IMG/VR virus record: IMGVR_UViG_3300032799_000093
Location: 1 to 40,610 of that record
Length of the DNA: 40,610 nt
Reading direction: 5' to 3' (one strand)
Source of the DNA: a virus
Under the pieces are notes generated by a model, which was given only the letters and a program-made list of their open reading frames with translations, did not search any database and was not told the DNA's origin. This document shows positions 1 to 14,547 of this stretch, piece by piece; position 1 is the stretch's first letter, and every line of letters starts with the position of its first letter. The translations under genes were made by a program, and so were the position numbers.

Positions 1-1
1 A

Positions 2-1685: not shown

Positions 1686-2557
1686 TGGCAGACCGTCTGA
1701 GTATTCCCGGATTCCTGGTCGAGCCGGCTGTTGACGATCTCGATGGCGTGGTGGACGACATGACGCCATTGGCCGTACCGCTGCCGAAGGCTGATCGGAT
1801 ATGGGTGATCGGAAACGGGCCAGGACTGAGAGCTGAGGATCTGACGGCGCTGCATGAGCGCGGCGAGATCTGTGTTGGCATGAATCGGATCCACCTGGTT
1901 TATGATCGCACCCCCTGGCGACCGCACGCCTACTTCCTGGGCGACACCCGTGGCAACATGGCGTGGGCTCAGGATGTGCTGTTTCACGCGGCGCAAGGAT
2001 ACCGCTGCTTCATCAAGAATCTGATCCTCGGCGGCATGACGCCGTACTGCGACCACGCAACCGGCAGTTGGACGGATGAAGCGTGGGCGGAGAACGTAGT
2101 CCCGCTGGCGGAGTGTCGGCATGACTACCTGGATCTGCGACCGCCGCGACGTTGGCACGCGCCTTACCTGTGCTGCTTCGCGGGCTCGATGAACGTGGCT
2201 CTCCAGGCTGCGGTGCTTTCTAAGCGCAAGCATGTGATCCTGCTCGGTGTCGATCATTCGTGGCAAGTGCGCGACCGGGCTGGCACGGCAGATCCCAACC
2301 ACTTCGATCCGCGCTACGATGGAGGGCTGGAGCACGGTGAGCTCAACGGGCAATCCATCAGCCACAGTCAAGCCTTTGTGGTGGTAAGCGAGAGGGCTAT
2401 CGAGAAGAACGAGGCGGAAGCGGTGTACCTGCATCGCTTGGCGGCTCGGGAGGCAGCGGCGAGAGGCGTGCTCATCATCAATGCCTCCAGGGAGACGCGC
2501 CTATCAACCTACCCGAGAGCCGACTTCGAGGAGTTGGTTCATGACGACGCAGTATGA
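1685..2557 (+). CDS. DUF115 / CST-I-like glycosyltransferase-fold protein
   Basis: 290 residues; the GTG start shares one base with the preceding stop (TAGTG). A nucleotide-binding-like strand-loop is seen at residues 39-48 (IWVIGNGPGL), followed by ICVGMNRI, an Asp-containing YFLGDTRG, and later VILLGVDHSW with DPNHFDPRY. This order (GNGPS/GL near the start, G.NR, then LGVDH and a Tyr/Asp/His-rich segment) is that of DUF115 and CST-I/GT42-like enzymes, which move sugars or related groups from nucleotide donors. A glycosyltransferase next to a fibre gene could modify phage fibres or the host envelope; substrate and direction are inference. No signal peptide or membrane segment is visible. Confidence 0.6.
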   Translation: MADRLSIPGFLVEPAVDDLDGVVDDMTPLAVPLPKADRIWVIGNGPGLRAEDLTALHERGEICVGMNRIHLVYDRTPWRPHAYFLGDTRGNMAWAQDVLFHAAQGYRCFIKNLILGGMTPYCDHATGSWTDEAWAENVVPLAECRHDYLDLRPPRRWHAPYLCCFAGSMNVALQAAVLSKRKHVILLGVDHSWQVRDRAGTADPNHFDPRYDGGLEHGELNGQSISHSQAFVVVSERAIEKNEAEAVYLHRLAAREAAARGVLIINASRETRLSTYPRADFEELVHDDAV

Positions 2558-3200
2558 GTATCTAGGCACGGCCTCGGGGCAGGAGGATTGGGGGGGCAGC
2601 AAGCAGATCACGGTGGCTGCGGTGGAGTTTTCTGAGCTGTGGGTTGCCGTTGGGTATGGGATCTCCACCCCGTACTTGCAGATTGATGGTGCTGGAGTAA
2701 CCGACGAATACCGAGCCAGTACGGGGTGGGATGGCGTGGCGATGGGCTGGAAGATTGTCCCCTCGGGTTCTCACACGGTCCTGGTCTATAACGGCAGCGA
2801 CAGCTGTGGCGTGGCGGTGATGCGCTTCAAGAATCACAAGGGTACGCCCTACCTCGACACCGGAGCAGAGGGTATTGCCTACGGCACAGAGGCACCATTC
2901 CCCAATCAGGATCTCACGGCTAAGGCTGGTGGCCTGGCGACGGCTTGTAAGGTTACTGCCTCAACGGGTCGAGGCGCTTATCTCTCTACGGGCGGAACGA
3001 TCCTCGGATCATTCACGCATAGAACCCCGTGCGATATGTCAAATGGTGAGTTCCATTGGGGATACAAGATCCCGACCGTGGATTCAACGACCGAGGAGTG
3101 TTCCTGGACGCAGGACAGCTATACTACGAAGGGCCAAGTCGCGATTCACATGAGCTTCGCTCCTATGGATGCGCTAGCTCACCAGCCTCAAGTGATCTAG
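2541..3200 (+). CDS. Putative tail-associated structural protein, beta-rich
   Basis: 219 residues from the ATG at 2541, overlapping the previous gene by 17 nt; a longer frame from 2481 would run 77 nt into the glycosyltransferase gene. The sequence is rich in Gly, Thr, Ser and aromatic residues with no long helices (for example WVAVGYGI near residue 34 and GSHTVLVYNGSDS near 80), which suggests a jelly-roll or beta-sandwich. No enzymatic motif is visible. Its place between the fibre/glycosyltransferase genes and the lysin suggests a tail or fibre component. I do not recognise the family. Confidence 0.6.
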   Translation: MTTQYEYLGTASGQEDWGGSKQITVAAVEFSELWVAVGYGISTPYLQIDGAGVTDEYRASTGWDGVAMGWKIVPSGSHTVLVYNGSDSCGVAVMRFKNHKGTPYLDTGAEGIAYGTEAPFPNQDLTAKAGGLATACKVTASTGRGAYLSTGGTILGSFTHRTPCDMSNGEFHWGYKIPTVDSTTEECSWTQDSYTTKGQVAIHMSFAPMDALAHQPQVI

Positions 3201-3209
3201 GAGGAGCCG

Positions 3210-3917
3210 ATGGCAACGTTGCAGCCTGTGTGGAAGCCGAACCCGAAGGATCCTCGCCCTTTGTTCGTGGACATCAGCCGGCACCAGGGGCGGATCAACT
3301 TCGCCAAGCTGCGGGCCTACCTGGATCCCGCGGTGCAGGCTATCGCGATCCGGGCAGGGATCGGGATGGACTATCTCGACTCGAACCTGATCTACAACTA
3401 CGAGAGCGCTGCTCGGTTGGAGTGGCCGGTGCAGATCTACCATGTGTGGCATCCGGCCTACGGGGTGACTGAGCACCTGCGTCACCTGGAGCGCATCTAC
3501 AAGCTCATCCGTCCGATCAAGGAGCCGGAGGGCCCGCCCATCGGGGATGTCGAGCTCAAGGGCAACCTGACGAAGCAGAAGTATTCCAGTCGGATCGACA
3601 GCTACCGCAAGGGAGCGGTCGATGTGTGTGGTCGCCAGGCCGTGATCTACTCACGCGTGAAGTGGCTGCTCGACAACCTCCAGACGCAACCCTGGATGGC
3701 GACAGCTCAATGGATCCTGGCGCAATACACCTGGACTGGACGAGAACACCCTGGGCCCTACCTCATGCACCCAATGATCCCGCGATTCCAGATCGTCGCC
3801 ATGCAAACATCGCAGCGCGGGGATGGCCGGCTGATGGGAACCGAAAGCCGAGCTCTCGACTTCGACCGATGGATGCAGGGCGGCACGGCTTGGGGGGTCT
3901 ACTGGCATGGGGGTTGA
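3210..3917 (+). CDS. Endolysin, GH25-type (muramidase-like)
   Basis: 235 residues, start fixed by AGGAGG about 8 nt upstream. The layout follows glycoside hydrolase family 25: FVDISRHQG with Asp21 at the first strand end, AIAIRAGIG..MDYLD at residues 44-57, IYHVWHP at 76-82, and IGDVELKG containing the D-x-E pair (Asp113/Glu115) typical of the catalytic centre. The C-terminal part has WILAQYT and a terminal ALDFDRW, also usual in this family. It would cleave the glycan strand of peptidoglycan to release progeny. There is no separate cell-wall-binding domain and no signal peptide, so a holin is needed; two membrane proteins follow directly. Confidence 0.85.
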   Translation: MATLQPVWKPNPKDPRPLFVDISRHQGRINFAKLRAYLDPAVQAIAIRAGIGMDYLDSNLIYNYESAARLEWPVQIYHVWHPAYGVTEHLRHLERIYKLIRPIKEPEGPPIGDVELKGNLTKQKYSSRIDSYRKGAVDVCGRQAVIYSRVKWLLDNLQTQPWMATAQWILAQYTWTGREHPGPYLMHPMIPRFQIVAMQTSQRGDGRLMGTESRALDFDRWMQGGTAWGVYWHGG

Positions 3918-4194
3918 CCAAGACGTTGAGCGACATGAGCGAGTGATCTACGGCGGAAACGGCCAGGGCAGCGGGATCCTGGGGAGGTTGGACAAGGTGG
4001 AGACGTACATGGAAGATCTCAGGGAAGAGAGAAAGGAGGCGCGAGAGAGTAGGCACAAGATCATGACCGCGATTATCTCCGGCATCGTGATCCAGCTGGT
4101 CGTGCTGCTCGGCGTGTTGGCGGCGAGCGGCTTCGAGCATCGGCTGATCGAGCAGGCGGTAATCGCAATCGTCACGGCCACCCCTAGCCCGTAG
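3907..4194 (+). CDS. One-TM lysis accessory protein (XhlA-like)
   Basis: 95 residues, overlapping the end of the endolysin gene. Residues 1-50 are charged and helical (RLDKVETYMEDLREERKEAR), followed by one hydrophobic segment at about residues 53-75 (IMTAIISGIVIQLVVLLGVL) and a short tail. A soluble coiled coil followed by one membrane helix is the layout of XhlA-type haemolysin/holin accessory proteins found between endolysin and holin. The function is inferred from this architecture and position; the sequence is too general to exclude another membrane-anchored role. Confidence 0.65.
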   Translation: MGVDQDVERHERVIYGGNGQGSGILGRLDKVETYMEDLREERKEARESRHKIMTAIISGIVIQLVVLLGVLAASGFEHRLIEQAVIAIVTATPSP

Positions 4195-4222
4195 GCGTGG
4201 TATCCTAAGTTGGAGGTGCGAA

Positions 4223-4603
4223 GTGGAGTTCACAGCTGAACAGCTCATCTTGATCGGGATTGTTGCGGTGATTGTTGGTTTCATCGTGTCAGCGGTCGTG
4301 CAGGTGATCCTGTGGATCGCGATGAAGGCGGGAAAGCCCATCGACGCAGACAAGGCCAAGCAGACTGTTCTGTTTTGGGTGGCCTTCCTCGCGTCGCTGG
4401 TCCTGGCTTTCACTTGGGCCAAGCCTGTATTCCCACCGATCCCACCCTTCGGCGGCGATGCGTTCGGGTTCATCATGGCGCTCCTACAATGGACGGTCAC
4501 GTTCTTGGCCGTGGTTGGAGGCCTGATGTCCCAGGCTCACTTGATCTACAAAGCGGTCCTCAAGGAGATCGTCTACCCGAAGTTGCCAATCCTCCGCCTG
4601 TAG
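4223..4603 (+). CDS. Holin, three predicted membrane segments
   Basis: 126 residues, GTG start with TGGAGG about 7 nt upstream. Three hydrophobic stretches are visible at about residues 7-33 (LILIGIVAVIVGFIVSAVVQ...), 48-64 (VLFWVAFLASLVLAFTW) and 83-102 (IMALLQWTVTFLAVVGGL), with a charged loop between the first two. Small size, three helices and a location right after endolysin and XhlA-like genes support a holin that permeabilises the membrane for the lysin. It is the last gene of this plus-strand block and is followed by two strong hairpins. Confidence 0.7.
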   Translation: MEFTAEQLILIGIVAVIVGFIVSAVVQVILWIAMKAGKPIDADKAKQTVLFWVAFLASLVLAFTWAKPVFPPIPPFGGDAFGFIMALLQWTVTFLAVVGGLMSQAHLIYKAVLKEIVYPKLPILRL

Positions 4604-4641
4604 CCCCGCCAGCCTACAGGTGCTCTCTCCTCTTTCTCGAC

Positions 4642-4671
4642 GCCTCCCGCCGCCTCCCTCCGGCGGGAGGC
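4642..4671. terminator. Strong hairpin between convergent genes
   Basis: A perfect 11-bp stem (arms 4642-4652 and 4661-4671) with an 8-nt loop follows the holin stop by about 40 nt. The following bases, TCGATTCTC, are only mildly T-rich. The position at the end of the plus-strand late block suggests transcription termination. Confidence 0.5.
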
Positions 4672-4728
4672 TCGATTCTCATGGGCGACCGGGATCCAGC
4701 TCGCCGGCGGCAGCGAAATCCTAGAGCA

Positions 4729-4752
4729 AACAGGCCCCTTCCGGGGCCTGTT
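4729..4752. terminator. Second, perfectly symmetric hairpin, possibly bidirectional
   Basis: A perfect 10-bp stem (AACAGGCCCC / GGGGCCTGTT) closes a TTCC tetraloop. It lies between the end of the plus-strand holin gene and the end of the minus-strand ribbon-helix-helix gene, so it could stop transcription from both sides. Neither flank has a clear T-run. Confidence 0.5.
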
Positions 4753-4777
4753 GGTGTCATGGGGCCAGTCCTGCGCC

Positions 4778-4990
4778 CTAGCGCTTCCTGGGGCTTCCTG
4801 GGGGTTTCGGGGCTTTCAGCTTGGCGGGGTGGTTCAAGTCGGTGTACGCCTGGCGGATCAGGGCCCGCAGCATGTCGCTGGTCCGCAGGCTGTAGGCCCG
4901 GCACACTTCTTCGAGCATGGCACCCTCCGCCTCCGAACAGCGAAAGCCGATCTGCACGATCCGGTCGTAGGTGATCTCCGGCTCCTTCAT
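4778..4990 (-). CDS. Small ribbon-helix-helix-like regulator
   Basis: 70 residues on the minus strand, the only minus-strand gene in the window. I chose the ATG at 4990 because GGAGGG lies about 6 nt upstream; a GTG at 5002 is an alternative. The core RIVQIGFRCSEAE (strand), then two helices ending LRTSDMLRALIRQAY, matches ribbon-helix-helix layout: a short basic strand, a helix, a turn, and a second helix. The last 20 residues are Pro/Lys-rich. It is divergent from the early operon and has a good promoter plus overlapping inverted repeats directly upstream. An autoregulated repressor or switch protein is the natural inference. No integrase accompanies it. Confidence 0.65.
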   Translation of the reverse strand: MKEPEITYDRIVQIGFRCSEAEGAMLEEVCRAYSLRTSDMLRALIRQAYTDLNHPAKLKAPKPPGSPRKR

Positions 4991-5007
4991 GGCACCCTCC
5001 ACCCAGG

Positions 5008-5036
5008 ATCCTACTCCCCTGGATCCAGATTGTCAA
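5008..5036 (-). promoter_or_regulatory. Sigma70-like promoter for the minus-strand regulator
   Basis: Read on the minus strand: TTGACA (5036-5031), exactly 17 nt, then TAGGAT (5013-5008). The predicted transcript start is near 5001, giving a very short leader before the ribosome site and the ATG at 4990. The -35 box lies inside one arm of the TTGTCAA/TTGACAA dyad. Confidence 0.6.
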
Positions 5037-5057
5037 ACACAGGCTTGACAACCTGTG
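5030..5057. promoter_or_regulatory. Overlapping inverted repeats, candidate operator
   Basis: Two interlocking dyads are visible: TTGTCAA (5030-5036) with TTGACAA (5045-5051), spacer 8 nt, and CACAGG (5038-5043) with CCTGTG (5052-5057), also spacer 8 nt. They lie between the minus-strand promoter and an extended -10 on the plus strand, so one bound protein could affect both directions. The adjacent ribbon-helix-helix protein is the obvious candidate ligand (inference). Confidence 0.5.
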
Positions 5058-5064
5058 GTAAGAT
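5056..5064 (+). promoter_or_regulatory. Extended -10 element for the early plus-strand operon
   Basis: TGGTAAGAT fits the extended -10 form TGnTAnnnT. No good -35 lies 17 nt upstream. Its left end overlaps the CACAGG/CCTGTG dyad. Transcription would begin near 5071, upstream of the small Cys-rich gene and recT. Confidence 0.35.
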
Positions 5065-5093
5065 CTAGTCGTCCGAACATGGCAGGGAAGCCA

Positions 5094-5360
5094 ATGCGAA
5101 TGCGATCAGCACAGACAGGGTTTGAGCGTAAGGGCACCATGCGCTACAGGATGGAGCAGCATGAGCTCGCCGTGTGGCCTCCGCCAGCTCGCAACATTGA
5201 GGGCTACTGCAACGTCACCCCGCATATTGCCGACGAAGAGTCCTGCCAGGCGAGCGAGTGCGTCTGTGGTGAGCCTTTGATGGCTGTGGCGCTGAAGCGA
5301 AATGGATCCTATCGAGTGTGGGCGGTGTGCCTCAACTGTTGCCTGGCGGTAGAGCTGTGA
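5094..5360 (+). CDS. Small Cys-rich (zinc-ribbon-like) early protein
   Basis: 88 residues from the ATG at 5094; other possible starts in frame are 5079, 5100 and 5139. I prefer 5094 because AGGGAAG lies just upstream and 5079 would be almost leaderless from the predicted promoter. Near residues 49-56 there is C.ASECVCGE and near 82-83 a CLNCC pair, giving a possible four-Cys zinc site. The product may bind DNA or a host protein; no family is recognised. It is the first gene of the rightward early block. Confidence 0.55.
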   Translation: MRMRSAQTGFERKGTMRYRMEQHELAVWPPPARNIEGYCNVTPHIADEESCQASECVCGEPLMAVALKRNGSYRVWAVCLNCCLAVEL

Positions 5361-5365
5361 GCTCA

Positions 5366-5446
5366 TTCCCGCTGAGCGGGAACGACGATCCCGCCGGCGG
5401 GAACAACGTCTACGGATACACCTAGTCCTATTCCCGCTGGCGGGAA
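5366..5446. repeat. Three palindromes of the form TCCCGC-N2-GCGGGA in front of recT
   Basis: Copy 1 is TTCCCGC TGA GCGGGAA (5366-5382), copy 2 is TCCCGCC GGCGGGA (5389-5402), copy 3 is TTCCCGC TG GCGGGAA (5431-5446). They fill most of the 98-nt gap before recT, and copy 3 ends 12 nt before the recT start. Candidate operators, iterons or RNA hairpins; sequence alone does not decide. Confidence 0.7.
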
Positions 5447-5458
5447 CGAGAGGGAGAC

Positions 5459-6676
5459 ATGGAAGCAAACGAGAAGGCTCTGGCGCTCTTTCATGGTGAC
5501 GCTGGTGATGCTCACCCCCTGGCGCGATGGGGTGAGGCGCGTGTGGTGCGAGCTTTGGCGACGCGGGTGATGCTTACGGACGGGCGGAAGGTGCCGTTGA
5601 ACGAGGGCGAGGCGATCTTGGTGGCGCAGGCGGCGCTGGCTTATCGGTTGGATCCCTTCATGGGCGAGATCGTGGCCTGGGTGAAGGAGCAGCAGAGCGG
5701 TCGGCGGATCCTGACGGTGATGAAGGGCCGCGATGGGGTGCTCAAGATCGCGAAGGCCAACGCCGCAGTTGAGGGAACCTACCTCGAAAACCCCCGCTTC
5801 TACCGAGTGATCGAGGAGCAACGGAAGCTGGCGCTCGGCGCGGGCAAGGACGACATGGTGATTGAGTGTTGGGTGCCCGACAAGAAATCGACCGACAGCT
5901 ACTATGAGCGCATCGCGATCTGCAAGGAGGCCGGCTACTCGAAGGTGGAGATTGACGAGAAGGTGGGCGCTACCCCGCCGGCGGATTATGGCCTGGGGAT
6001 CGTGACCGCAGACGAGATCGAGAACCGGCACTACTACCACAACAACAAGGGCGAGCGCACCGGGACTATCGACGTGAAGTTCACGGACGTGGAGCTCTGT
6101 CAGAAGCGGGCGATGATGGCTGCGCTTCGCAAGCGATGGGCGGCGCAGGAGTTTCTTGAGCCGGTCGGCGGATCCACCGACACCGACGACTACATCGTGG
6201 ACGCCGAGTGGATGGTGGTCGAGCCCGAGAAGGCGACGGATCCTGTTGAGCGAGCAGAGCGGGCGCAGGCTGGTCGAGAAGCGCTGTTCGGCGGCGGGCC
6301 CGTGGAGCAAGTCTCTCGCCCTTACCCTCCAGTCGTGGTGAAGAACAAGGTAGGGCGCAAGGTCGAGGAGGGAGCGAAGAAGAAGATCCAGCTGACGCAG
6401 GGACAGCGAGGTATGGTGATCGGCGCGATGAACGAGGCTTTGGGCGACGACAAGAAGCGGCACACCGTCCTCAAGTTCCTATTCAATACCGACAGCGCGA
6501 AGAACCTGGCGGATGCTGAGTTCTATGGCCTGATGGAGTGGCTGACGATCTCGAAGGACAGCGGCGGGACGTATCTGCCAAGCCCCATCGCTTGCCAGGA
6601 GCTTGAGCGCATCGTAACCGAGGCCATGACTGAGGCCCACGAAGGGACGTTGTTCGATGGAACAGCTGCACTTTGA
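5459..6676 (+). CDS. recT: RecT-family single-strand annealing protein
   Basis: 405 residues, start supported by GAGGGAG 5 nt upstream. Residues about 47-72 carry the RecT signature (LNEGEAILVAQAALAY.LDPFMGEI), followed by strands RRILTVMKGRDGVLKIAKAN, a middle YYERIAICKEAGY region, and FTDVELCQKRAMMAALRKRW near residue 215. RecT proteins anneal complementary single strands in phage recombination and replication. The C-terminal 150 residues (after VEPEKATDP) are an extra, charged region that includes KKKIQLTQGQRGMVIGAMNEAL and may be a separate interaction domain. No RecE/lambda-Exo-type nuclease gene is visible beside it, which is unusual because the two commonly pair. Confidence 0.8.
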   Translation: MEANEKALALFHGDAGDAHPLARWGEARVVRALATRVMLTDGRKVPLNEGEAILVAQAALAYRLDPFMGEIVAWVKEQQSGRRILTVMKGRDGVLKIAKANAAVEGTYLENPRFYRVIEEQRKLALGAGKDDMVIECWVPDKKSTDSYYERIAICKEAGYSKVEIDEKVGATPPADYGLGIVTADEIENRHYYHNNKGERTGTIDVKFTDVELCQKRAMMAALRKRWAAQEFLEPVGGSTDTDDYIVDAEWMVVEPEKATDPVERAERAQAGREALFGGGPVEQVSRPYPPVVVKNKVGRKVEEGAKKKIQLTQGQRGMVIGAMNEALGDDKKRHTVLKFLFNTDSAKNLADAEFYGLMEWLTISKDSGGTYLPSPIACQELERIVTEAMTEAHEGTLFDGTAAL

Positions 6677-6935
6677 GCTCGTCCAGAAGAAGAGGGTGCT
6701 GGTCGGCTATCAATGGACATTCGCCGGCCATGTGCGCGATGCGATTGCCAGGGCGACGAAGCACTACCTGGAACGCGACGGCACACGCTTCATCGAGGTC
6801 CGCATGAATCCTTTGGACTTCGAGAAGGCTGAGGTGCAGGACGATGAAAGGCTGTGGCTGATCGCTGACAAGACGATCCTGCCTCAGCACATCTATCTCA
6901 TCATGGCAGATCGGCACGACCTACACGAAAGCTAG
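6657..6935 (+). CDS. Hypothetical protein overlapping the recT end
   Basis: 92 residues, ATG inside the last 20 nt of recT, so probably translated by coupling. Mixed alpha/beta composition: HFELVQKKRVLVGYQWTFAGHV at the start, EVRMNPLDFEKAEV in the middle, ending IYLIMADRHDLHES. No motif is recognised. Position suggests a recombination or replication accessory role only by association. Confidence 0.6.
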   Translation: MEQLHFELVQKKRVLVGYQWTFAGHVRDAIARATKHYLERDGTRFIEVRMNPLDFEKAEVQDDERLWLIADKTILPQHIYLIMADRHDLHES

Positions 6936-6944
6936 GAGGGAAAC

Positions 6945-7403
6945 GTGAGCAAGGTAACTGAGAAGCTGGTGGATCTGGCGAAGAACCGAGTGAAAGTGGT
7001 CGAGCTCAAGTCGGAGGAGAAAGACCTGTGGGCGAAGCTGGAGGAAAACGCCGCCTACGTCCTCTGGAAGAACGCCAACGACCGAAGGATGGCGATGGAG
7101 AAGGAAGGCACCGCGATCCGCTACGAGCTTGGATCGTTAGCGGTATGCGCTCACCGCGAGGGTGAGGCGATGCCGGATCAGATCCAGATTGTCATGCAGC
7201 GCAGGGTGGAGTTCTCGAACGGGATCCTGGAGTGGTCCAAGAAGAACGTGCCGGCGATGCTGGTGCTGGAGGAGAAGGCGCTGACCAAGATGGTTCTTGG
7301 CCTCAACGCTGACCAGCTCGCGGGAATGGGGATCCCCGCTCTTGTGATTGAGACGCCTGACATCCGGGTTGACTCGGATCTCAGCGCGGTGCTGATCGAC
7401 TGA
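6945..7403 (+). CDS. Siphovirus Gp157-like / helical early protein
   Basis: 152 residues, GTG start with a strong AGGAGGG about 5 nt upstream. Mostly helical and charged with a coiled-coil-like first half (LVDLAKNRVKVVELKSEEKD). Near residues 97-103 it has EWSKKNVPAML, then EEKALTKMVLGLN and a closing PALVIETPDIRVDSDLSAVL. This resembles the ending of Gp157-type phage proteins, which sit beside RecT or SSB genes. The assignment rests on that tail pattern and context. The first half could also fit a Gam-like nuclease inhibitor. Confidence 0.6.
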   Translation: MSKVTEKLVDLAKNRVKVVELKSEEKDLWAKLEENAAYVLWKNANDRRMAMEKEGTAIRYELGSLAVCAHREGEAMPDQIQIVMQRRVEFSNGILEWSKKNVPAMLVLEEKALTKMVLGLNADQLAGMGIPALVIETPDIRVDSDLSAVLID

Positions 7404-7508
7404 TCTTCCGAGGTCGGGCCACCAGGTAAGACGGCGGACTCTGAGCGAACAGGTGGCAAGCCGCCGCACCTCGGTTGCGAAAAAGATCGAGAGGGTGTAG
7501 GATGTCTG

Positions 7509-7610
7509 TGTGGCAGGGAACCACTAAATCGCTCTTGCTGGCCTGGCGGTCAGTCCTCGGTAACGAGGGCTTCCCTGCCACAGCTGATCGCCAGGCCAAT
7601 GAGAGCGATT
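7509..7610 (+). ncRNA. Interleaved inverted repeats: candidate structured RNA or DNA element
   Basis: This lies in a 287-nt stretch without a convincing gene (7404-7690). Arm A (7509-7520) is the perfect 12-nt complement of A' (7571-7582). Arm B (7527-7554) pairs with B' (7583-7610) over 28 positions with one mismatch (7538/7599) and a few G-U pairs. A 5-bp hairpin with a GTAA loop (7555-7568) sits between. The order A-B-hairpin-A'-B' is interleaved, as in a pseudoknot. Only 6 nt join A to B, so both full helices can hardly form together; alternative folds or a partial pseudoknot are more likely. The plus strand is assumed from neighbouring genes. Confidence 0.5.
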
Positions 7611-7615
7611 GCTTT

Positions 7616-7654
7616 TCTCTCCTCCCGAATGGGAGGGGGGGAGGGGGGGGTGGG
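7616..7654 (+). other. Hairpin followed by long G-runs (potential G-quadruplex)
   Basis: CCTCCC (7621-7626) pairs with GGGAGG (7631-7636) around a GAAT loop. It merges into four G-tracts at 7631-7633, 7635-7641, 7643-7650 and 7652-7654, separated by single bases. It lies 37 nt before the start of the next gene and just after the interleaved repeats. It could be a terminator-like or translation-control structure. Confidence 0.5.
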
Positions 7655-7690
7655 CGATCCCCCCAGGATGTTCTTCGGGAGGGAGAGTCA

Positions 7691-7909
7691 ATGTCTTTAC
7701 CTATGCCTATCGCTAAGTGCCACAAGTGCAACGCTGAGATCCTGTGGGCTGTGACGGATCCTGGCAATCGACCGATGCCGGTTGATGCCAAGCCCGAGAA
7801 GAGGCTGATCCTTCAAGGGAACAGGTGCAAGATTGTCACTACCTACACCCCGCATTGGGCGACTTGCCCGAACGCGGATGAGTTCAGAAAGGAGCGCAAG
7901 CATGACTGA
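7691..7909 (+). CDS. Small zinc-ribbon protein (CxxC...MPVDAKP type)
   Basis: 72 residues from the ATG at 7691, with GAGGGAGA about 4 nt upstream. The frame is open upstream to 7475, but that part lies in the repeat and G-run region and looks non-coding. Motif order is CHKCNAEILWA, then GNRPMPVDAKPEKR, then HWATCPNADEFRK. This is a familiar small phage and actinobacterial protein type with a treble-clef or ribbon-like zinc site and a conserved MPVDA segment; its biochemical role is unknown. Its end overlaps the next gene by 8 nt. Confidence 0.75.
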   Translation: MSLPMPIAKCHKCNAEILWAVTDPGNRPMPVDAKPEKRLILQGNRCKIVTTYTPHWATCPNADEFRKERKHD

Positions 7910-8171
7910 GAAGCTGATGGAGCGGAAGGCGCTGGAGAGGATCGTGGACTTCGCCATCGACCGACAATGCGGCGATAAGCCGCACGTTGGCTCTGGCGCT
8001 GAGGTTCTGGCTCAGCTCTACACGGCCAGGGCGGTCCTGCACTTGGCGGACGTGGTGGCAGAGCAAACGGAGAAGGTGGACAGCATCACGGCCTACCTGT
8101 TCACTCCGGTCAGTAGTCTTGTTGCTGTCATTCCGGGCCCGTCGCCGGAGGGTGGCGATGGAGCAGGATGA
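7902..8171 (+). CDS. Hypothetical early protein
   Basis: 89 residues from the ATG at 7902, which has AAGGAG about 7 nt upstream and overlaps the previous gene by 8 nt. The first two thirds are helical (KLMERKALERIVDFAIDRQ, then EVLAQLYTARAVLHLADVVAEQ) and the end is hydrophobic then Pro/Gly-rich. There is no catalytic motif. It belongs to a tightly packed early operon; function unknown. Confidence 0.6.
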   Translation: MTEKLMERKALERIVDFAIDRQCGDKPHVGSGAEVLAQLYTARAVLHLADVVAEQTEKVDSITAYLFTPVSSLVAVIPGPSPEGGDGAG

Positions 8172-8541
8172 GCATGTCCGCAACCTGGTCATGTCCTGCC
8201 TCCAGCTGCACAAGGGCAAGGCCAACGCCGTATCCATCGAGGACATCACCGAGTACGTCACGACCTACGCCACCTGGATCAAGGTGGATGAGCGCCGGGT
8301 GCGCCAGGCTATCGAGGATCTGCGGCGCACCTCGGATCGCGGCGCTCTGATCTGTTCGAGCTCTGGAGTCAAGGGGCGCTGGCTGGCGACCAGTCTCAAC
8401 GATGTGCTGGACAACTATCGGGAGGAGCGCCGTCGCGCCATCGAGCTCATGGTGACAATCCGGGAGCGACGCGAGCGAGCGGCGCGCATGTTCGGGGGGC
8501 AGCTAGGGTTGCAGCTAGGCTATGACTATGATCCGCGCTAG
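8158..8541 (+). CDS. Winged-helix-like DNA-binding phage protein
   Basis: 127 residues; ATG at 8158 with GGAGGG about 5 nt upstream, overlapping the previous gene by 14 nt. A helix-turn-helix-like first half is visible (SIEDITEYVTTYATWIKVDERRVRQAIEDLRRT), followed by a wing-like hairpin (ALICSSSGVKGRWLATSLNDV) and a long basic helix (YREERRRAIELMVTIRERRERAARM). The form 'RR.I..LR......I.S..G.WLA' is common in phage winged-helix proteins of replication or early-regulation modules. DNA binding is a fair inference; whether it starts replication or regulates transcription is open. Confidence 0.65.
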   Translation: MEQDEHVRNLVMSCLQLHKGKANAVSIEDITEYVTTYATWIKVDERRVRQAIEDLRRTSDRGALICSSSGVKGRWLATSLNDVLDNYREERRRAIELMVTIRERRERAARMFGGQLGLQLGYDYDPR

Positions 8542-8604
8542 CCTCGGCCTGGGGATCCTGCGCTGCACATGCGGTTGCGATCACTTGGGATGGAGAGAGC
8601 TCAG

Positions 8605-8625
8605 TCCACAAATGGCTGTTGTGGA
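8605..8625. promoter_or_regulatory. Inverted repeat TCCACAA-N7-TTGTGGA
   Basis: A 7-bp perfect dyad with a 7-nt spacer lies in the 188-nt gap between the winged-helix gene and the gene at 8730. It is operator-sized, and the neighbouring winged-helix protein is a possible ligand, but this is inference. Confidence 0.35.
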
Positions 8626-8650
8626 TCTCGATTGGGAAAGCTGTCATTGT

Positions 8651-8677
8651 CTCGGCCCTGTAGCTCACAGGGCCGAG
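8651..8677 (+). terminator. Perfect 11-bp hairpin
   Basis: CTCGGCCCTGT pairs with ACAGGGCCGAG around an AGCTC loop, followed by GTCGCTTTCGG. It divides the early block at the gap 8542-8729. A terminator or attenuator is likely from stability and location, though the T-run is weak. Confidence 0.5.
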
Positions 8678-8729
8678 GTCGCTTTCGGCGCAGGGTGGAT
8701 GCCGATAGGAACGCTGGTGGAGGGAGACG

Positions 8730-9002
8730 ATGTTGGAGACGTGGTTCCCGAGGGAGCGCCCGGTCGAACCGCCTGGCCGGAGCGAAATGGCGGATGCGAT
8801 CTACTGCCGCTTCAAGACGAGAGCGGGCTTCCAGCCGGATCCATCGCTGGACAAGATGTGGCGAGACGGGGCGCGGCGGTTAGCGGTGGTCAACCCTAGC
8901 ATGGAGTTTGTCGATTGGGCGATCATCCGCTTGCAGCAGCGCGGCCAGGCGATCACGGATCCATCGGTGCTCGCCCTGGTGCTGACCGAATGGAAAGCGT
9001 AG
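8730..9002 (+). CDS. Hypothetical early protein, helical
   Basis: 90 residues, ATG with AGGGAGA a few nt upstream. Pro/Arg-rich first 18 residues, then helices (AIYCRFKTRAGFQPDPSLDKMW, NPSMEFVDWAIIRLQQRGQAI) and a final LALVLTEWKA. The last part resembles small phage proteins with a conserved closing Trp, but I cannot name the family. It starts a new sub-block after the hairpin at 8651. Confidence 0.6.
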   Translation: MLETWFPRERPVEPPGRSEMADAIYCRFKTRAGFQPDPSLDKMWRDGARRLAVVNPSMEFVDWAIIRLQQRGQAITDPSVLALVLTEWKA

Positions 9003-9024
9003 ACTCTGGCAATAGGAGGACACA

Positions 9025-9345
9025 ATGGCAGAGATCGACCTATACGCGGTAGTCAAGCAGACGACAGATGTTCGGGACGACGCAGCCGGCAATCACGATA
9101 TGGGGAACGTGCATCCTGGAGAGCGCTTACACCTGGTCGAGAAATACAACAAGAACGGCCAGCTGTGGTTTCGCGCCGACAACCTGGAGCGCTTCGTCCA
9201 GCCAGGCTACAACGAGACGTGGGTGAACGGCAAGGACATCGGCTTCGAGGCCGAGCCCCCTCCGCTGCCGCCGGGTGACTATGCCCCGTCCGCTGAGGAT
9301 CTGTTCGCTGCTCGCCGGGTGATCGCCTTCCTGCTCGGCAAATGA
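9025..9345 (+). CDS. SH3b-like domain protein
   Basis: 106 residues, strong AGGAGG upstream of the ATG. Residues 6-60 read like a bacterial SH3 fold: YAVVKQTTDVRDDAAG, then HPGERLHLVEKYNKNGQLWFRAD. These are the strand-RT loop-strand steps seen in SH3b domains, here without a signal peptide or a lysin partner. The C-terminal third is Pro-rich and then helical. It could bind another phage or host protein. Its stop overlaps the next ATG (ATGA). Confidence 0.6.
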   Translation: MAEIDLYAVVKQTTDVRDDAAGNHDMGNVHPGERLHLVEKYNKNGQLWFRADNLERFVQPGYNETWVNGKDIGFEAEPPPLPPGDYAPSAEDLFAARRVIAFLLGK

Positions 9346-9596
9346 CAATGGTGGTGATCGAAGGCCAGGACTTTGTGCTCGGCCTTCGCCTGGAGGTGGG
9401 CGACGACTTCGATGTTGTCGCCACCTCCAGGTGCTCGATCTGCAACAAGGCTATCTACTATCATCCTGACTTGCGAGGCTCGGAGGATCCACGGATCTGC
9501 ACGATATGCGCGGCTGAGAAGATGGGGCTGGTGCCGCTTGAGGGAGTGGCGAAGATGCCGACCGAGAGACAGATGAAATTGTGGAGGGAGAAATGA
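9342..9596 (+). CDS. Small zinc-ribbon protein
   Basis: 84 residues, ATG overlapping the previous stop. A hydrophobic beta-rich start (VVIEGQDFVLGLRLEVG) precedes CSIC at about residues 31-34 and CTIC about 20 residues later, the two CxxC knuckles of a zinc ribbon. The rest is basic and ends TERQMKLWREK. Small ribbon proteins of this kind often bind nucleic acid or a host factor. No specific function can be assigned. Confidence 0.65.
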   Translation: MTMVVIEGQDFVLGLRLEVGDDFDVVATSRCSICNKAIYYHPDLRGSEDPRICTICAAEKMGLVPLEGVAKMPTERQMKLWREK

Positions 9597-9736
9597 GAGC
9601 TGGTAGAGTGCTTCCCCTGATGTTGGTGCTGCTCCTGGGATGTCTGATCGGAGCGGCGCTGAGCTACGTCCTGCTGGTCACGGCCCTGGCTGTCGGGACC
9701 GGCCCCGGCGGGATGATGCCGGGGGTGTGGCTATGA
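9593..9736 (+). CDS. Short membrane peptide, 47 residues
   Basis: ATG overlaps the preceding stop (ATGA) and GGAGGGAG sits just upstream, so translation is well supported despite the small size. After a basic MRAGR start, the peptide is hydrophobic from residue 6 to about 35 (VLPLMLVLLLGCLIGAAL...), then Gly/Pro-rich. One long or two short membrane segments are possible. The LLGC stretch weakly resembles a lipobox. It lies far from the lysis genes, so a host-takeover or superinfection role is as likely as lysis; both are guesses. Its stop overlaps the next ATG. Confidence 0.6.
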   Translation: MRAGRVLPLMLVLLLGCLIGAALSYVLLVTALAVGTGPGGMMPGVWL

Positions 9737-10110
9737 GCGACGACTCAATCGGTTGCATGGGAACCAGGCTTCCGCCAATCCCCCCGACCACACCAGGACC
9801 GGATAGCCTGCGGGAGATTGCGCATGCTCTCAGGCAGAAGGATGCGTACATCTTCCTGAACATGACTGCCGGAAAGGTGGACGCCCACGCCGACGCATGG
9901 GAGGCGGAGCGGGCGGAGAACTGGGCCGAGACGGAAAGGCTACTTGTGGAAGTCGCCGCCCTCCGCAAGCGGCTAGAGGAGGCGGAGAAGTACCTGCGCC
10001 TAATTGGACATGGCGAGGAATGGGCCGCCCTGGAGGAGAAGCCTCCGGGCGAGAAGTTGCTGACGGCCATCGTCAACGCTAGGCCAAAGGCCGCAGGGGA
10101 GGGGACATGA
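9733..10110 (+). CDS. Coiled-coil hypothetical protein
   Basis: 125 residues from the ATG at 9733 that overlaps the previous stop. The first 25 residues are Pro-rich, then there is a long charged helix (WEAERAENWAETERLLVEVA, then LRKRLEEAEKYLRLI) typical of a coiled coil. No catalytic residues are visible. The stop overlaps the ParB-like HTH gene, so the two are probably produced together. Confidence 0.6.
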   Translation: MSDDSIGCMGTRLPPIPPTTPGPDSLREIAHALRQKDAYIFLNMTAGKVDAHADAWEAERAENWAETERLLVEVAALRKRLEEAEKYLRLIGHGEEWAALEEKPPGEKLLTAIVNARPKAAGEGT

Positions 10111-10676
10111 GCGACATCCTCTCTCTCCCCGGACAATGGGCGGAGGTGACGATCACCGGCCTTCGGATCCACAACCGCAAGCCGACAAGACGCCAATGGG
10201 GTACGTCCTGGGAAATGGTGATCTCTGCCCGAGTGATGAGCGCCTGGTCGATGGGCGATCTCTACAACGCGGGCGAGGGCATGAGTGAGGAGGTTCACCA
10301 ATTCATCACCGCTGCCGGCGTCTCTCTCAAGACCGTCCGCAACCACGCCTCAGTCTGCAAGCTCTACCGCTATCGGGAGCGCATGTTCCCGCCTTCCTTC
10401 ACGCACCATGAGGTCGTCGCCAAGCTGCCGAAGGATCGGCGCGTCTACTGGCTCAAGCGATCCGTGGAGGAGGACATTGACAGCGAGGCCCTGTCCGAGC
10501 TCACCGCCGAGGAGCGCGGTGTCGAGCCGAAGGCGAAGGTGAGTGGATCCGCGAAGGTTCTGGCCGGCGTGAAGATGGCGCTTGAGGGCTGCTCCGAGTG
10601 GGGGATCGGGGCCGAGGAGCATGGCTTCGTTGAACCGCTGGAGTGGATCCGCCGAGATCTGGAGGCGCTGGAATGA
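10107..10676 (+). CDS. ParB/KorB-like helix-turn-helix protein
   Basis: 189 residues, ATGA overlap with the gene before. The core at residues about 47-125 has the order 'WSMGDLYNAGEGMSEEVHQFI...GVSLKTVRNHASVCKLY...SFTHHEVVAKL...YWLKRSVEE'. This is the HTH segment I associate with phage and plasmid proteins related to ParB/KorB DNA-binding domains (W..GD.L..GE... T..N.A.V... HH..VA.L). No ParB N-terminal GERR-type nuclease or CTP motif is present. A role in transcriptional control, replication or segregation is possible; no ParA partner is in the window. Confidence 0.6.
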   Translation: MSDILSLPGQWAEVTITGLRIHNRKPTRRQWGTSWEMVISARVMSAWSMGDLYNAGEGMSEEVHQFITAAGVSLKTVRNHASVCKLYRYRERMFPPSFTHHEVVAKLPKDRRVYWLKRSVEEDIDSEALSELTAEERGVEPKAKVSGSAKVLAGVKMALEGCSEWGIGAEEHGFVEPLEWIRRDLEALE

Positions 10677-10906
10677 ACGGGTGCTACGAGCTCGCCCTTG
10701 AGCATTACTTGGCCGTGCGAGAGGCGCGAACGAATATCCCATCGGAAGTCACATCAAGAAAGGCGCGAGATCCTTCCGCTGGAGAGCTGGAGTATGTGTG
10801 GCGGAGTCGAGACAACAACTCCTCGCACAGAGCGCGCCACAAACTCGGGCGCTGCTTGCCGGACTTGGACTATGGTGAGGCCTATGCGATCCGACATCTG
10901 CTTTGA
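10673..10906 (+). CDS. Hypothetical small early protein
   Basis: 77 residues, ATG overlapping the previous stop (ATGA). A helical start (ELALEHYLAVREARTNI) is followed by a basic, Ser/Arg-rich middle and LPDLDYGEAYAIRHLL at the end. No family is recognised. It overlaps the HNH-like gene by 23 nt. Confidence 0.5.
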   Translation: MNGCYELALEHYLAVREARTNIPSEVTSRKARDPSAGELEYVWRSRDNNSSHRARHKLGRCLPDLDYGEAYAIRHLL

Positions 10907-11237
10907 TGAGTGCTGGCTTGAGGGCTACGGCCACGCTTGCAGCTCCAACATCCAGGGCCACCACTTCGTCTCCAAGAGCAAGACGCAGAAGGCGCGGCAG
11001 GCCAGGCGCGAGGCTGAGCAGCTGGTCGTGCCTGTCTGTCGCATCGCCAATGCGGAGCTCAAGCTGGCGGATACCAAGTGGGCGCAGCGCGTGATCGCTG
11101 AGCGCCTGGTGGATGAGCTCGGGCGCGAAGAAGTCGAGCGCCGGCTGGCGCTGGCATGGAAAGTGTCGCATCCAGAGCTCACCCTGAACGGGATCCTGGC
11201 TGGCCCGCCCCCACCCATGCCGAGGCTGTTGCTTTAG
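10884..11237 (+). CDS. HNH-like protein, apparently degenerate
   Basis: 117 residues from the ATG at 10884; a start at 10872 is possible. CSSNIQGHHFVSKSKTQKAR at residues about 19-38 looks like the first half of an HNH zinc-nuclease motif (Cys, then HH near a strand turn). LVVPVCRIANAE near residue 50 looks like the second half (usually a C..HN-type closing). The expected last His is not obvious, so activity is doubtful. The remaining helical part ends in a Pro-rich tail. It is the last early gene before the second structural block. Confidence 0.5.
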   Translation: MRSDICFDECWLEGYGHACSSNIQGHHFVSKSKTQKARQARREAEQLVVPVCRIANAELKLADTKWAQRVIAERLVDELGREEVERRLALAWKVSHPELTLNGILAGPPPPMPRLLL

Positions 11238-11257
11238 GACGCCATCCCTGCTATGCT
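11229..11257 (+). promoter_or_regulatory. Weak sigma70-like promoter before the second structural block
   Basis: TTGCTT (11229-11234), 17 nt, TATGCT (11252-11257), then AAGGAGG and the ATG at 11293. The match is partial (3/6 and 4/6), but spacing and place at a functional boundary are right. Confidence 0.3.
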
Positions 11258-11292
11258 TCTTCCTGGAAGCTACCGCATAAGGAGGATGGACA

Positions 11293-11721
11293 ATGGCAAT
11301 CTACAGTTTGGCGAACAGAACATCAGGGGCAGGCTCGGGTGCTCCGAGTCTGGAAATCCGAGCAGCCGCGGCCAACCGCCCGAGGCTGCTGGAAATGGGA
11401 ATCTGGCTGAACGCGGCCACGCAGTCGCCCATCGGCATCGGTCGTCCGCAGGCCATTGGTGTCACGCCGACTTCGCCGGTCACAGTTCTGCAAGAGGATC
11501 CTGGTGACAGCGCCGGCCTGACGCAGACCGCGCTGGCCTGGGCCACCCCGCCGACCGTGCCGCTCAACTTCTTCCGCCGGCTCAACATCGCCGCGGCCAT
11601 TGGCGCGGGCGTGCTGCTGACCTTCCCCCGCGGCATTGTGATCGCGGCTGCTTTCTCGCTCATCAACTGGAACATCGCGGCTGTCTCGGTGTACGACTGT
11701 CATATCGTCGTTGATGAGTAG
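11293..11721 (+). CDS. Putative virion structural protein
   Basis: 142 residues, strong AAGGAGG upstream. Ala/Gly-rich with the order EIRAAAANRPRLLEMGIWL, then FRRLNIAAAIGAGVLLTFPRG and SLINWNIAAVSVYDCHIVVDE. The alternation and the RRL...GAGV...PRG... NW ... VVDE pattern recall small beta-sandwich proteins that decorate phage capsids or tails. The structural role is inferred; a predicted promoter directly upstream would let it start a late operon. Confidence 0.55.
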   Translation: MAIYSLANRTSGAGSGAPSLEIRAAAANRPRLLEMGIWLNAATQSPIGIGRPQAIGVTPTSPVTVLQEDPGDSAGLTQTALAWATPPTVPLNFFRRLNIAAAIGAGVLLTFPRGIVIAAAFSLINWNIAAVSVYDCHIVVDE

Positions 11722-11726
11722 CGGTC

Positions 11727-11888
11727 ATGGCTACCGACTACCAGGTGGTCAAGGCGAAGTCCATCGCCGTTCTTGAGGCGCGAGTCAACGTGCAGATTGC
11801 ACTTGGTTGGGAGCCCGTTGGCGGGGTATGTGATGCCGTCAACGAGGCCGACGGCGAGGCGTATCTGATGCAGGCGATGGTGAAGTAG
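11727..11888 (+). CDS. DUF1737-like small protein
   Basis: 53 residues. It reads DYQVVKAKSIAVLEARVNVQ, then LGWEPVGGV and finishes YLMQAMVK. That order (YQVV.......L...V......GW.P.GG......QAM) is the DUF1737 pattern, a small alpha/beta fold of unknown function found in bacteria and phages. It starts 5 nt after the previous stop. Confidence 0.6.
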   Translation: MATDYQVVKAKSIAVLEARVNVQIALGWEPVGGVCDAVNEADGEAYLMQAMVK

Positions 11889-11899
11889 CGGAGGCGCGG

Positions 11900-12151
11900 A
11901 TGGGGACGACCATCTTCATCAACAAGATGCCGACCTTGCACTCCGGCGGTCGGCAGACAGCGGGACCATCCGAGCGGGACATGGTGTGTTGTAGCTGCTA
12001 TCGCTTCTTCGTGGTGACGACGCGCACCTGGGAGGAAGCTGAGCGGCAACCATGTCCCTACTGTCACAGTAGGGAGACGACTGCCATGCTCGGGGAGTAC
12101 CACAACGCCGAGCCGGTGCTCGTCTCTGATGGGAAGGGAGGGTTTCGCTAA
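11900..12151 (+). CDS. Small zinc-ribbon protein
   Basis: 83 residues, ATG after a GGAGG-type site. Two Cys pairs are visible: MVCCSCYRFF near residues 28-35 and CPYCHSRE near 52-59, a CxxC...CxxC ribbon. Its stop overlaps the next ATG (TAATG). It lies in a structural-looking block, unlike the other ribbon proteins in the early region. A nucleic-acid or protein-binding role is possible. Confidence 0.6.
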   Translation: MGTTIFINKMPTLHSGGRQTAGPSERDMVCCSCYRFFVVTTRTWEEAERQPCPYCHSRETTAMLGEYHNAEPVLVSDGKGGFR

Positions 12152-12657
12152 TGCCTGGGAAGATCCTCGGTACGGGCGCGGTGGTCAGTCCAGACGGGGC
12201 TCGTCGCCCTGACCGCTGGCTCAACTTCCGGTACGCCTTCCCTCCTGAGAGGGACATCCGCGACAGGGAGGACTCTCCAGGCGGGCGCAATCCCTACAAC
12301 CTGTGGCCTCCGAGCGACCTGATCGGCGGCGAAGAAATCGGCATGACCGTAATGAAGCTGGTGTCCTACGACGACGATGTGCGGTTCGGGGGAAGAAAGG
12401 GGCCGCTGGTGATCGCCGGTCAGACGGTAGATAGCGCCGGCTCGCCCCTGCCAGGGATGCTCGTTGAGCTGTCTTTGGTGAAGCCTCTCGATGTTGGCGA
12501 TGCCTGGCAGAAGCAGCCACAGCTGGTCGCCTCGATCTACTCAGACGCCAATGGCATGTTCGCTTTCACCGTGCCGAACACGACCAATGAATACAAGGTC
12601 GAGGCCTACGATGGCAGCCGGAGTGGAGTGACCGTGAGGAACCTGACGGGTGCCTAA
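12151..12657 (+). CDS. Putative virion surface protein with Ig-like / carboxypeptidase-regulatory-like domain
   Basis: 168 residues, start overlapping the previous stop. The C-terminal half has the beta-sandwich phrase IAGQTVDSAGSPLPGMLVEL, then SIYSDANGMFAFTVP and YKVEAYDGSRSGVTV, as in carboxypeptidase regulatory-like domains that decorate surface proteins. The N-terminal half (RWLNFRYAFPPERD, then NPYNLWPPSDL) is not recognised. A capsid or tail decoration that contacts the cell surface is inferred. Confidence 0.55.
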   Translation: MPGKILGTGAVVSPDGARRPDRWLNFRYAFPPERDIRDREDSPGGRNPYNLWPPSDLIGGEEIGMTVMKLVSYDDDVRFGGRKGPLVIAGQTVDSAGSPLPGMLVELSLVKPLDVGDAWQKQPQLVASIYSDANGMFAFTVPNTTNEYKVEAYDGSRSGVTVRNLTGA

Positions 12658-13069
12658 GCTACAGAAGCTCACCTGCCTGGCCTATGACGGCACGCCTAAG
12701 AATGTCAGGATGGCGCTGAACCTCGCGCCTGAGTTCACGGGCGAGCTAGTGCGGCGCACCGTGTTCCTCATCAATGCGCCCAGGACCGTGCCCGCGCCGG
12801 CAGCTGTGCTCGAAGGAGTGCAGTACGGCAACAACGGGACCGAGTTCACGGGATCGCTGGCTGGTGCGACTGGCTATCCCATCGAGGATGATGTGCGCCT
12901 GGGGATCACCTACGGCCAGTTCGAGGGCCAGTACGAGGGCGACCTGGTGCTCCCTGCCGAGGCGGACGTGAAGCTCGGGGTGGACTACGGGGCCGACGCT
13001 ACCGAGTTCGAGGGCGAGCTGACGGGCGGCGGCGGTGGCGTGAGCCGAGGCAGGGTGGTGAACCCATGA
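12650..13069 (+). CDS. Repeat-containing putative structural protein
   Basis: 139 residues, GTG start overlapping the previous gene by 8 nt. It carries three similar units: VLEGVQYGNNGTEFTGSLAG, DVRLGITYGQFEGQYEGDLV and DVKLGVDYGADATEFEGELT (about residues 51-130), each with an L/G-x-x-YG...EF.G.L core. Repeats of this sort are typical of phage decoration or fibre proteins. A Gly-rich hinge follows and the end is Arg/Val-rich. The exact virion location is unknown. Confidence 0.55.
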   Translation: MPKLQKLTCLAYDGTPKNVRMALNLAPEFTGELVRRTVFLINAPRTVPAPAAVLEGVQYGNNGTEFTGSLAGATGYPIEDDVRLGITYGQFEGQYEGDLVLPAEADVKLGVDYGADATEFEGELTGGGGGVSRGRVVNP

Positions 13070-14070
13070 GACTCCTCAAGCAAGCGACGGCGGCGAGCGT
13101 GATGGTGCTGATGGTTGACAGCACCGATCATGTCACGGGCAAGACTGGCCTAACGCTGACGATCACCGCCTCGAAGAACGGCGCGGCCTTCGCCTCGATC
13201 TCGCCCACGGTCAACGAGCGGGGCTCGGGCTGGTATGAGCTCCAGCTGACTACGGCGCACACCGACACGCTTGGCGATCTGGCGCTGCATGTGACGGGGG
13301 CGGCGGCGGATCCGACCGACACGCTGAGCTACGTTGTGCCTCGCCACCTGGCGGACCTTGCCTTTCCCGCAACCTCGGGCCGGTCCCTGGCTGTCGAGGC
13401 GGACGGGATGGTGCATGGGGATCTCAAGGAGTGGTTGGGCGTGGCTCCTTTTGCGCTCGATGCTCAGCGGGTAGTGGTGGACGTGGACCACATCCGAGAC
13501 GACAAGATCAACAGCGACAGCTTCGATGCCAGCGCGATCACGGCTGCGGCCCTGGCGACTGACGCGGTGACTGAGATCCAGGCGGGCCTGGCGCTCGAGG
13601 CAACGGCTCAGTCCATCAAGGGCAAGACCGACAACCTTCCTTCGGATCCGGCGGATGAGAGCATCCTAGAGGCTGCTATCGCTGGCGTGCTGGCTGACAC
13701 CAACGACATTCAGAGCCGGCTACCCGCGGCCCTGGTATCGGGGAAGATGGACTCCACCATCGGGGCTGTGGCTGCGAGTGCGCTCACGGCTGCGGCCTTC
13801 GCTGCTGGAGCAATCAACGCGAATGCCCTGGCGAATGATGCGGTGGAGGAGATCGCGATGAAGGTGCTCACCTGGGCGAGCTCGAATTGGGAGAGCTCGG
13901 CTGGTGTCAAGAGCCTGGGTGCTGCCGTGATGAAGGCGGTCCACAGGATCCGAGACAACGCGGGCACGCTGGAGATCTTCCGGGCGGATGGCACTACCCT
14001 CCATGCTTCGCAGACCGTGACGACCGACGACACCTTGAAGCCGATTGATGAGTTGAGTGGAGCGGCATAG
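13066..14070 (+). CDS. Putative structural (decoration/fibre) protein
   Basis: 334 residues, ATGA overlap with the gene before. The N-terminal 100 residues form a beta-sandwich-like unit (GLTLTITASKNGAAFASISP, then GSGWYELQLTTAHTDTLGDL) that I know from phage head or tail decoration proteins. The middle is Ala-rich and helical (DAVTEIQAGLALEATAQSIK) and could form a trimeric stalk. The C-terminal domain has HRIRDNAGTLEIFRADGTTL. A fibre with a globular base, stalk and tip is a plausible reading. Confidence 0.6.
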   Translation: MRLLKQATAASVMVLMVDSTDHVTGKTGLTLTITASKNGAAFASISPTVNERGSGWYELQLTTAHTDTLGDLALHVTGAAADPTDTLSYVVPRHLADLAFPATSGRSLAVEADGMVHGDLKEWLGVAPFALDAQRVVVDVDHIRDDKINSDSFDASAITAAALATDAVTEIQAGLALEATAQSIKGKTDNLPSDPADESILEAAIAGVLADTNDIQSRLPAALVSGKMDSTIGAVAASALTAAAFAAGAINANALANDAVEEIAMKVLTWASSNWESSAGVKSLGAAVMKAVHRIRDNAGTLEIFRADGTTLHASQTVTTDDTLKPIDELSGAA

Positions 14071-14411: not shown

Positions 14412-14547
14412 GAGCATGTCGTTCGGGAAGCTGGTGATCTCGCTGATGAAGGATCGCCACCTGACCAAGAAGCGAGCAAGCAAGCTCGCAGGATGGTTGG
14501 AATATCATGGCAAAGGCTGGAGCTCGCCGCGTCGGAAGGGCAGCTAA
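14371..14547 (+). CDS. Very small basic protein before the small terminase
   Basis: 58 residues, overlapping both neighbours; a start at the ATG at 14416 (43 residues) is also possible. KTPTGKSMSFGKLVISLMKD, then TKKRASKLAGWLEYHGKGW resembles short basic helical phage peptides encoded near packaging genes. The heavy overlaps (41 nt with each side from 14371) lower confidence. Confidence 0.4.
   Translation: MQRWQVPIKTPTGKSMSFGKLVISLMKDRHLTKKRASKLAGWLEYHGKGWSSPRRKGS

Follow-up and report, generated by a model that had tools for sequence, protein, structure and literature searches.

A strongly conserved intergenic element with interleaved helices, possibly an RNA folding switch, in a tailed phage

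Between two rightward genes of a virus record of 40,610 bases (analysed whole and referred to here as the window), two long complementarities interleave, which raises the question of what kind of element, working as RNA or as DNA, such an arrangement could be. An earlier note made from the sequence had described the order A-B-GTAA hairpin-A'-B', with 12 perfect base pairs in one helix and 28 positions with one mismatch and some G-U pairs in the other. Both the order and the pairing were confirmed (Table 1). The extent given in that note needed revision, since its core holds but the conserved unit is larger, beginning at 7404 and including a second interleaved motif at 7408-7474. Our preferred reading, to which we assign a probability of about 45%, is that 7404-7626 is a structured plus-strand RNA of the rightward early transcript, the 3' half of which is a folding switch that controls the downstream genes.

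Table 1. Features of the conserved intergenic element and of the sites related to it (window coordinates)
Feature	Position	Strand	Remark
Whole conserved intergenic element, 223 nt	7404..7626	+	222/223 identical in L018; rank 1 of 22,163 windows
5' domain, candidate H-type pseudoknot	7408..7474	+	only site of such form in the window
A strand	7509..7520	+	12 bp, -22.2 kcal/mol with 7571-7582
A-B link, 6 nt	7521..7526	+	read from the sequence
B strand	7527..7554	+	outer 7527-7537, mismatch C7538, inner 7539-7554
Hairpin, 5 bp, GTAA (GNRA-type) loop	7555..7568	+	mean pair probability 0.86
A' strand	7571..7582	+	in the apical loop of the B:B' fold
B' strand	7583..7610	+	inner 7583-7598, mismatch A7599, outer 7600-7610
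Pyrimidine tract	7613..7626	+	pairs with G tract 7631-7643; complementary to the gene 7691 ribosome-binding site
Likely ribosome-binding site of gene 7691-7909	7677..7687	+	from the sequence; unchanged in L002
Possible target in trans, around the start codon of the first rightward gene	5079..5092	+	13 nt complementary; cofolding unsupportive

Genome setting and geometry of the element

The window encodes a terminase, a major head protein and a giant protein of 4804 aa that carries a ddrB-ParB domain, and was therefore assigned to a tailed phage. The open frame of the giant protein (19928-34342) occupies over one third of the genome, with the ddrB-ParB domain near its end. The two ends of the window (1-190 and 40421-40610) are direct repeats with 93% identity, and a contig of a sister phage, L018, runs from window position 34225 through the end and then from 2 to 7641; these two observations make a circularly permuted or terminally redundant, almost complete genome probable. 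The genes flanking the element lie on the plus strand, and the nearest assigned minus-strand gene is located at 4778-5002. This short gene weakly resembles a repressor family (E 0.017) and stands opposite the rightward genes, with TTGTCAA/TTGACAA repeats between them, and the region 4778-5078 may be an early control region. The rightward transcript would be an early one, judging from which genes are present and from a divergent region at 5003-5078 that resembles a promoter. Upstream, the element follows by 0.7 kb a gene weakly similar to Bet-type annealing proteins (E 0.06). The genes starting at 6657 and 6945 had no PHROGs match at E 0.001, gene 6945-7403 reaching a family of unknown function at E 0.017, while the downstream gene 7691-7909 encodes 72 aa and belongs to phrog_5984.

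Within the core, A and A' form 12 Watson-Crick pairs without a mismatch. The outer part of B:B' has 11 pairs and the inner part 16, each including 2 G-U pairs, so that the 28 positions comprise 23 Watson-Crick pairs, 4 G-U pairs and the single C.A mismatch (C7538.A7599). The hairpin between B and A' has its stem at 7555-7559/7564-7568 and its GTAA loop at 7560-7563. The interleaved two-helix order of an H-type pseudoknot is present here in A/B and also, in the 5' half, in two helices termed S1 and S2. Because the A-B link measures only 6 nt and the A'-B' link 0 nt (when the T.G pair 7554/7583 is counted), the full A and full B helices would be unlikely to coexist as a simple pseudoknot.

A scan of the whole window for interleaved helices, each required to have 9 or more Watson-Crick pairs, yielded two matches, both of which belong to this element (A with outer B, and A with inner B). 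Their number is ordinary (2, against a shuffle mean of 1.7). When the whole window was shuffled 60 times with a second-order Markov model, no interleaved pair had more than 10 Watson-Crick pairs in its weaker helix; here the weaker helix, A:A', has 12, and inner B has 14. Furthermore, none of 1000 local dinucleotide shuffles of 7500-7626 gave an interleaved pair with at least 9 pairs each. The statement of the earlier note that random DNA would not give such a structure is therefore well founded, an interleaved pair this strong having appeared in neither set of shuffles (0/60 and 0/1000). Its argument that the G-U pairs favour selection as RNA proved weak, because 4 of the 5 non-Watson-Crick positions are G.U and the probability of at least 4 of 5 under equal odds is 0.19.

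Conservation in a sister phage

The only relative found was one sister phage, represented by two contigs of one metagenome, namely L018 and L002, the latter consisting of pieces that span 7662 to 22384 of the window. Over 24,366 aligned bases the sister is 88.4% identical to the window, and 677 of 2599 fourfold sites differ (26%). The element itself has 1 difference in 223 positions, against a mean of 25.7 per 223-nt window, and the next-best non-overlapping windows have 3, 5, 5, 6, and 6 differences. No difference was found in the 102 positions originally noted (7509-7610), so conservation in a related phage, a point raised by the earlier note, is strong. The conserved stretch starts directly after the stop codon of gene 6945-7403, 20% of whose bases differ in the sister. 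The single change inside the element is at 7483, and the next changes (7627-7629) fall in the loop of the hairpin formed by the pyrimidine and G tracts. All four differences in 7404-7641 are at predicted unpaired positions, which make up 66 of the 238 positions; this placement is modest evidence for the fold, since three of the four are adjacent (approximately 0.08 if they are taken as two events). No stem position differs between the two genomes compared, and hence there is no covariation.

A recent exchange between the two phages could have made the stretch identical in the absence of any special function. Other near-identical tracts exist, including a run of 125 nt in the annealing-protein-like gene and the windows with 3 to 6 differences mentioned above, as such an exchange would suggest. 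Nevertheless, the edges of the conserved stretch coincide with a stop codon and a hairpin loop, and the interleaving and folding signals are independent of conservation, so we regard this explanation as very unlikely. Two further conserved tracts were observed. The 112-nt run at 4568-4679 is identical in the sister, is partly untranslated and contains a strong GCCTCCCGCC/GGCGGGAGGC hairpin, which is perhaps the end of the late transcript. In addition, 98 untranslated bases at 5361-5458 have 3 sister differences and carry three TTCCCGC..GCGGGAA-type palindromes before the annealing-protein-like gene, which are possible operators.

Conservation could also reflect a small protein translated across the element from ATG 7502 in the frame of gene 7691, as this frame is open over 7475-7909 and a purine-rich GAGAGGG stretch precedes this ATG. 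We give this scarcely any credence: none of its 25 fourfold sites changed, against 6.5 expected (P about 5e-4), only 3% of genic windows have a lower codon score, and conservation is just as high in the 98 bases that precede the ATG. The element is apparently untranslated.

The 5' half of the conserved unit contains a helix, P1 (7408-7414/7468-7474, 7 bp), that encloses S1 (7418-7423/7452-7457) and S2 (7432-7437/7461-7466), which are interleaved and have 6 bp each. With links of 8, 14, and 3 nt, S1/S2 would be a sterically easier pseudoknot than A/B. The P1-enclosed motif occurred in 0 of 1000 local shuffles. Shuffled genomes contained on average 1.87 sites of the P1-S1-S2 type (100 shuffles, 80 of them with at least one), so that a genome with one such site is nothing unusual and its position alone is notable, the chance of such a motif falling inside the most conserved 223 nt being approximately 0.01. 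The nested fold of the 5' half is no better than that of shuffles (z +0.57), and given its conservation, this half would need the S1/S2 pseudoknot, a protein or a DNA role.

Order of folding and the region downstream

The plus strand of 7500-7625 has a nested fold of -65.0 kcal/mol (z -6.25). The minus strand of the same region folds almost as well (z -5.00), so the strand is not fixed by stability. In stepwise folds starting from 7500, the minimum-energy structure contained 8 of the 12 A:A' pairs for a transcript ending at 7578 and all 12 for ends from 7582 to 7594, and inner B replaced A:A' from end 7598; with folds starting from 7404, A:A' won only for the transcript ending at 7594. Enforcing A:A' costs approximately 12 kcal/mol (-52.7 against -65.0 for the free fold), so the predicted end point is B:B', with A' left in the loop, rather than an even balance of two states or a full pseudoknot. 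The ensemble of 7404-7700 agrees in giving probabilities of 0.98 to inner B, 0.95 to outer B, and 0.00 to A:A'. Any role of A:A' would thus be kinetic, assisted by a factor or protein, or exerted between molecules. Among the earlier proposals, a two-state fold is thus supported by the formation of A:A' before B:B' in stepwise folds.

Under the switch reading, A:A' would form first, while the RNA is still emerging from the polymerase. Synthesis of B' would then allow the 27-pair B:B' helix to displace A:A', which would free A and show A' in the apical loop beside the GNRA-type hairpin. The exchange might control genes from 7691 onward by determining the pairing partners of the pyrimidine tract and of the ribosome-binding site, or by influencing how polymerase or nuclease passes. 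In the ensemble of 7404-7700, the hairpin of the pyrimidine and G tracts has a probability of 0.95 and pairing of the pyrimidine tract with the ribosome-binding site 0.00. Both arms of the latter pairing are kept in the sister, in which the intervening stretch differs or is unassembled; near the tract, the sister differs only in the hairpin loop. The adjacent stretch at 7630-7662 is a long G-rich tract in which both sister contigs end, and its sequence would be able to form a G-quadruplex or to pair with CCCCCC.

A site acting at the DNA level is a rather unlikely alternative to the switch. The inverted repeats would then be a protein-binding or foldable single-strand site for replication, recombination or packaging, without any RNA function. 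Perfect conservation suits protein binding as well as it suits RNA, both strands fold, the core TGGCAGGGAA is found again at 5080, next to the early promoter region, and the site lies shortly past the gene weakly resembling an annealing protein. Against this, there is no AT-rich stretch, no iterated set of direct repeats and no turn of GC skew near 7.5 kb, and a PHROGs scan of 32 distinct ORFs (of 204) detected no integrase, transposase or reverse transcriptase. A replication origin was rejected on account of the GC skew. A phage attachment site, a retron and a diversity-generating element were likewise discarded because no such enzyme was among the ORFs scanned.

Alternatively, B:B' alone could matter, either as an RNase III-type processing site or as a terminator followed by TTTTCTCT, with A:A' being incidental. 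Helices of 27 pairs with one mismatch are typical sites for double-strand cutters, and a T-rich tract begins 2 nt past the B:B' stem. The 12 perfect pairs of A:A', in an order that excludes B:B' and is beyond chance, speak against a processing or attenuation hairpin, and we consider it unlikely. As for the terminator version, a scan for intrinsic terminators found none in 7380-7720, although its loop limit of 8 nt put B:B' out of reach. A promoter and terminator scan around the element gave no match.

An action in trans was also considered. Positions 7568-7580 are the exact complement of 5080-5092 (13 nt), which overlaps the start codon ATG 5079, and the complementarity is kept in the sister. 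For 7567-7583 this is the best site in the window, at -29.1 kcal/mol against -25.9 kcal/mol for the next region. An antisense RNA might accordingly exist in which the A' loop of B:B' pairs with the 5079 start region as feedback on the early operon, with A serving as a decoy within the RNA that covers A' before B:B' forms. Across the window, however, there are 44 distal complementary matches of at least 13 nt, 6 of which touch one of 43 start regions, so approximately 0.5 would be expected to involve the element by chance, which could explain the complement. Among 42 starts, cofolding, which is unable to score loop pairing inside B:B', put the 5079 site in 8th place, and as good a result came from 25 of 198 random windows. 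We therefore view the antisense explanation as distinctly unlikely. More remote still is a new class of phage RNA with tandem domains in pseudoknot order, in which B:B' would close one molecule and A' would pair with the A of the next; such a domain swap would give multimers or a nuclease-resistant fold and would not regulate a single gene.

Relatives, known systems, and meaning

Rfam 15 gave no matches at gathering score in the window or in 4 related loci, and sub-threshold hits in 7380-7700 were chance-like only, the best being an animal microRNA model far below its cut-off. A covariance model built on 7500-7643 gave matches above noise in just the window and the sister among 18 sources (weak others at E 0.1 and 0.36); over whole records, the sister was the one match in 17, and no third member appeared. 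In blastn searches, the element had no plasmid match; matches to phage records, with E allowed up to 10, numbered 16 and were all short. Its DNA pattern was absent from genome_contigs. Besides the sister, one DNA pattern matched L019, by chance, and a second matched L023 and L024; the element is absent from all three.

Searches with the neighbouring genes gave a similar picture. The upstream gene 6945-7403 had no relatives, the annealing-protein-like gene retrieved one contig (L009) and nothing from genome_contigs or phages, and gene 10107-10676 retrieved the sister only. The terminase found 7 loci, among which just L002 (93%) was close, and this contig begins right after the element. The idea that every relative of the 72-aa gene carries such a leader was rejected: in all contig relatives (7 of 7), an open frame comes within 30 nt of the match, so the element is a property of this phage group, not of the gene. 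The gene upstream of the 72-aa relative in Geobacillus phage PK5.2 ends 11 nt before it, and D6E has an unannotated gap there but no match to the covariance model. No description of the element, which has no name and is hard to search for, was found in the literature, nor was any regulatory RNA for the phage group.

Several known RNAs offer partial likenesses. E. coli SRP RNA and hok mRNA are metastable switching RNAs in which an early hairpin is displaced by a later, longer one, and the element resembles them in fold order only. In T7 early mRNA, RNase III sites are long hairpins between genes of the early operon; the element shares the long intergenic hairpin but adds the 12-bp A:A' helix in exclusive order. 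The put RNA of HK022 (PMC9378689) is structured, lies inside early phage transcripts and acts in cis on the elongating polymerase; the element is not known to match it in sequence. The element would share a structured RNA in an early phage transcript and an inferred action in cis, whereas the action on polymerase is a property of put and the interleaved fold one of the element. GOLLD, ROOL, and OLE are large structured bacterial RNAs (PMC12286853); like them the element would be a structured RNA, and intermolecular loop-loop pairing is one conceivable use of A:A'. They are large compared with the approximately 220 nt here, and the Rfam scan gave no match to them.

Taken together, the switch reading is supported by interleaving beyond chance, conservation from the stop codon on, the z of -6.25, the formation of A:A' before B:B' in stepwise folds, the location of element and genes on the plus strand, and the sister-conserved complementarity of tract and ribosome-binding site. 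It is weakened by the comparison of two genomes with no stem change, the ensemble probabilities of 0.00 for A:A' and for tract with ribosome-binding site, the absence of a promoter or terminator match, the z of +0.57 for the 5' half, and the almost equal folding of the minus strand. The element is real and strongly conserved, has a computed two-state fold and is most likely a cis-acting RNA control element, and we infer that it is transcribed, that its helices exchange in the cell, and that it controls genes from 7691 onward. If the switch reading is true, the phage would possess a compact natural RNA in which the helix order obliges one fold to give way to another during transcription. Furthermore, conservation across the aligned genome is highest in a stretch that is no gene, and this points to a step of control or replication yet to be studied.
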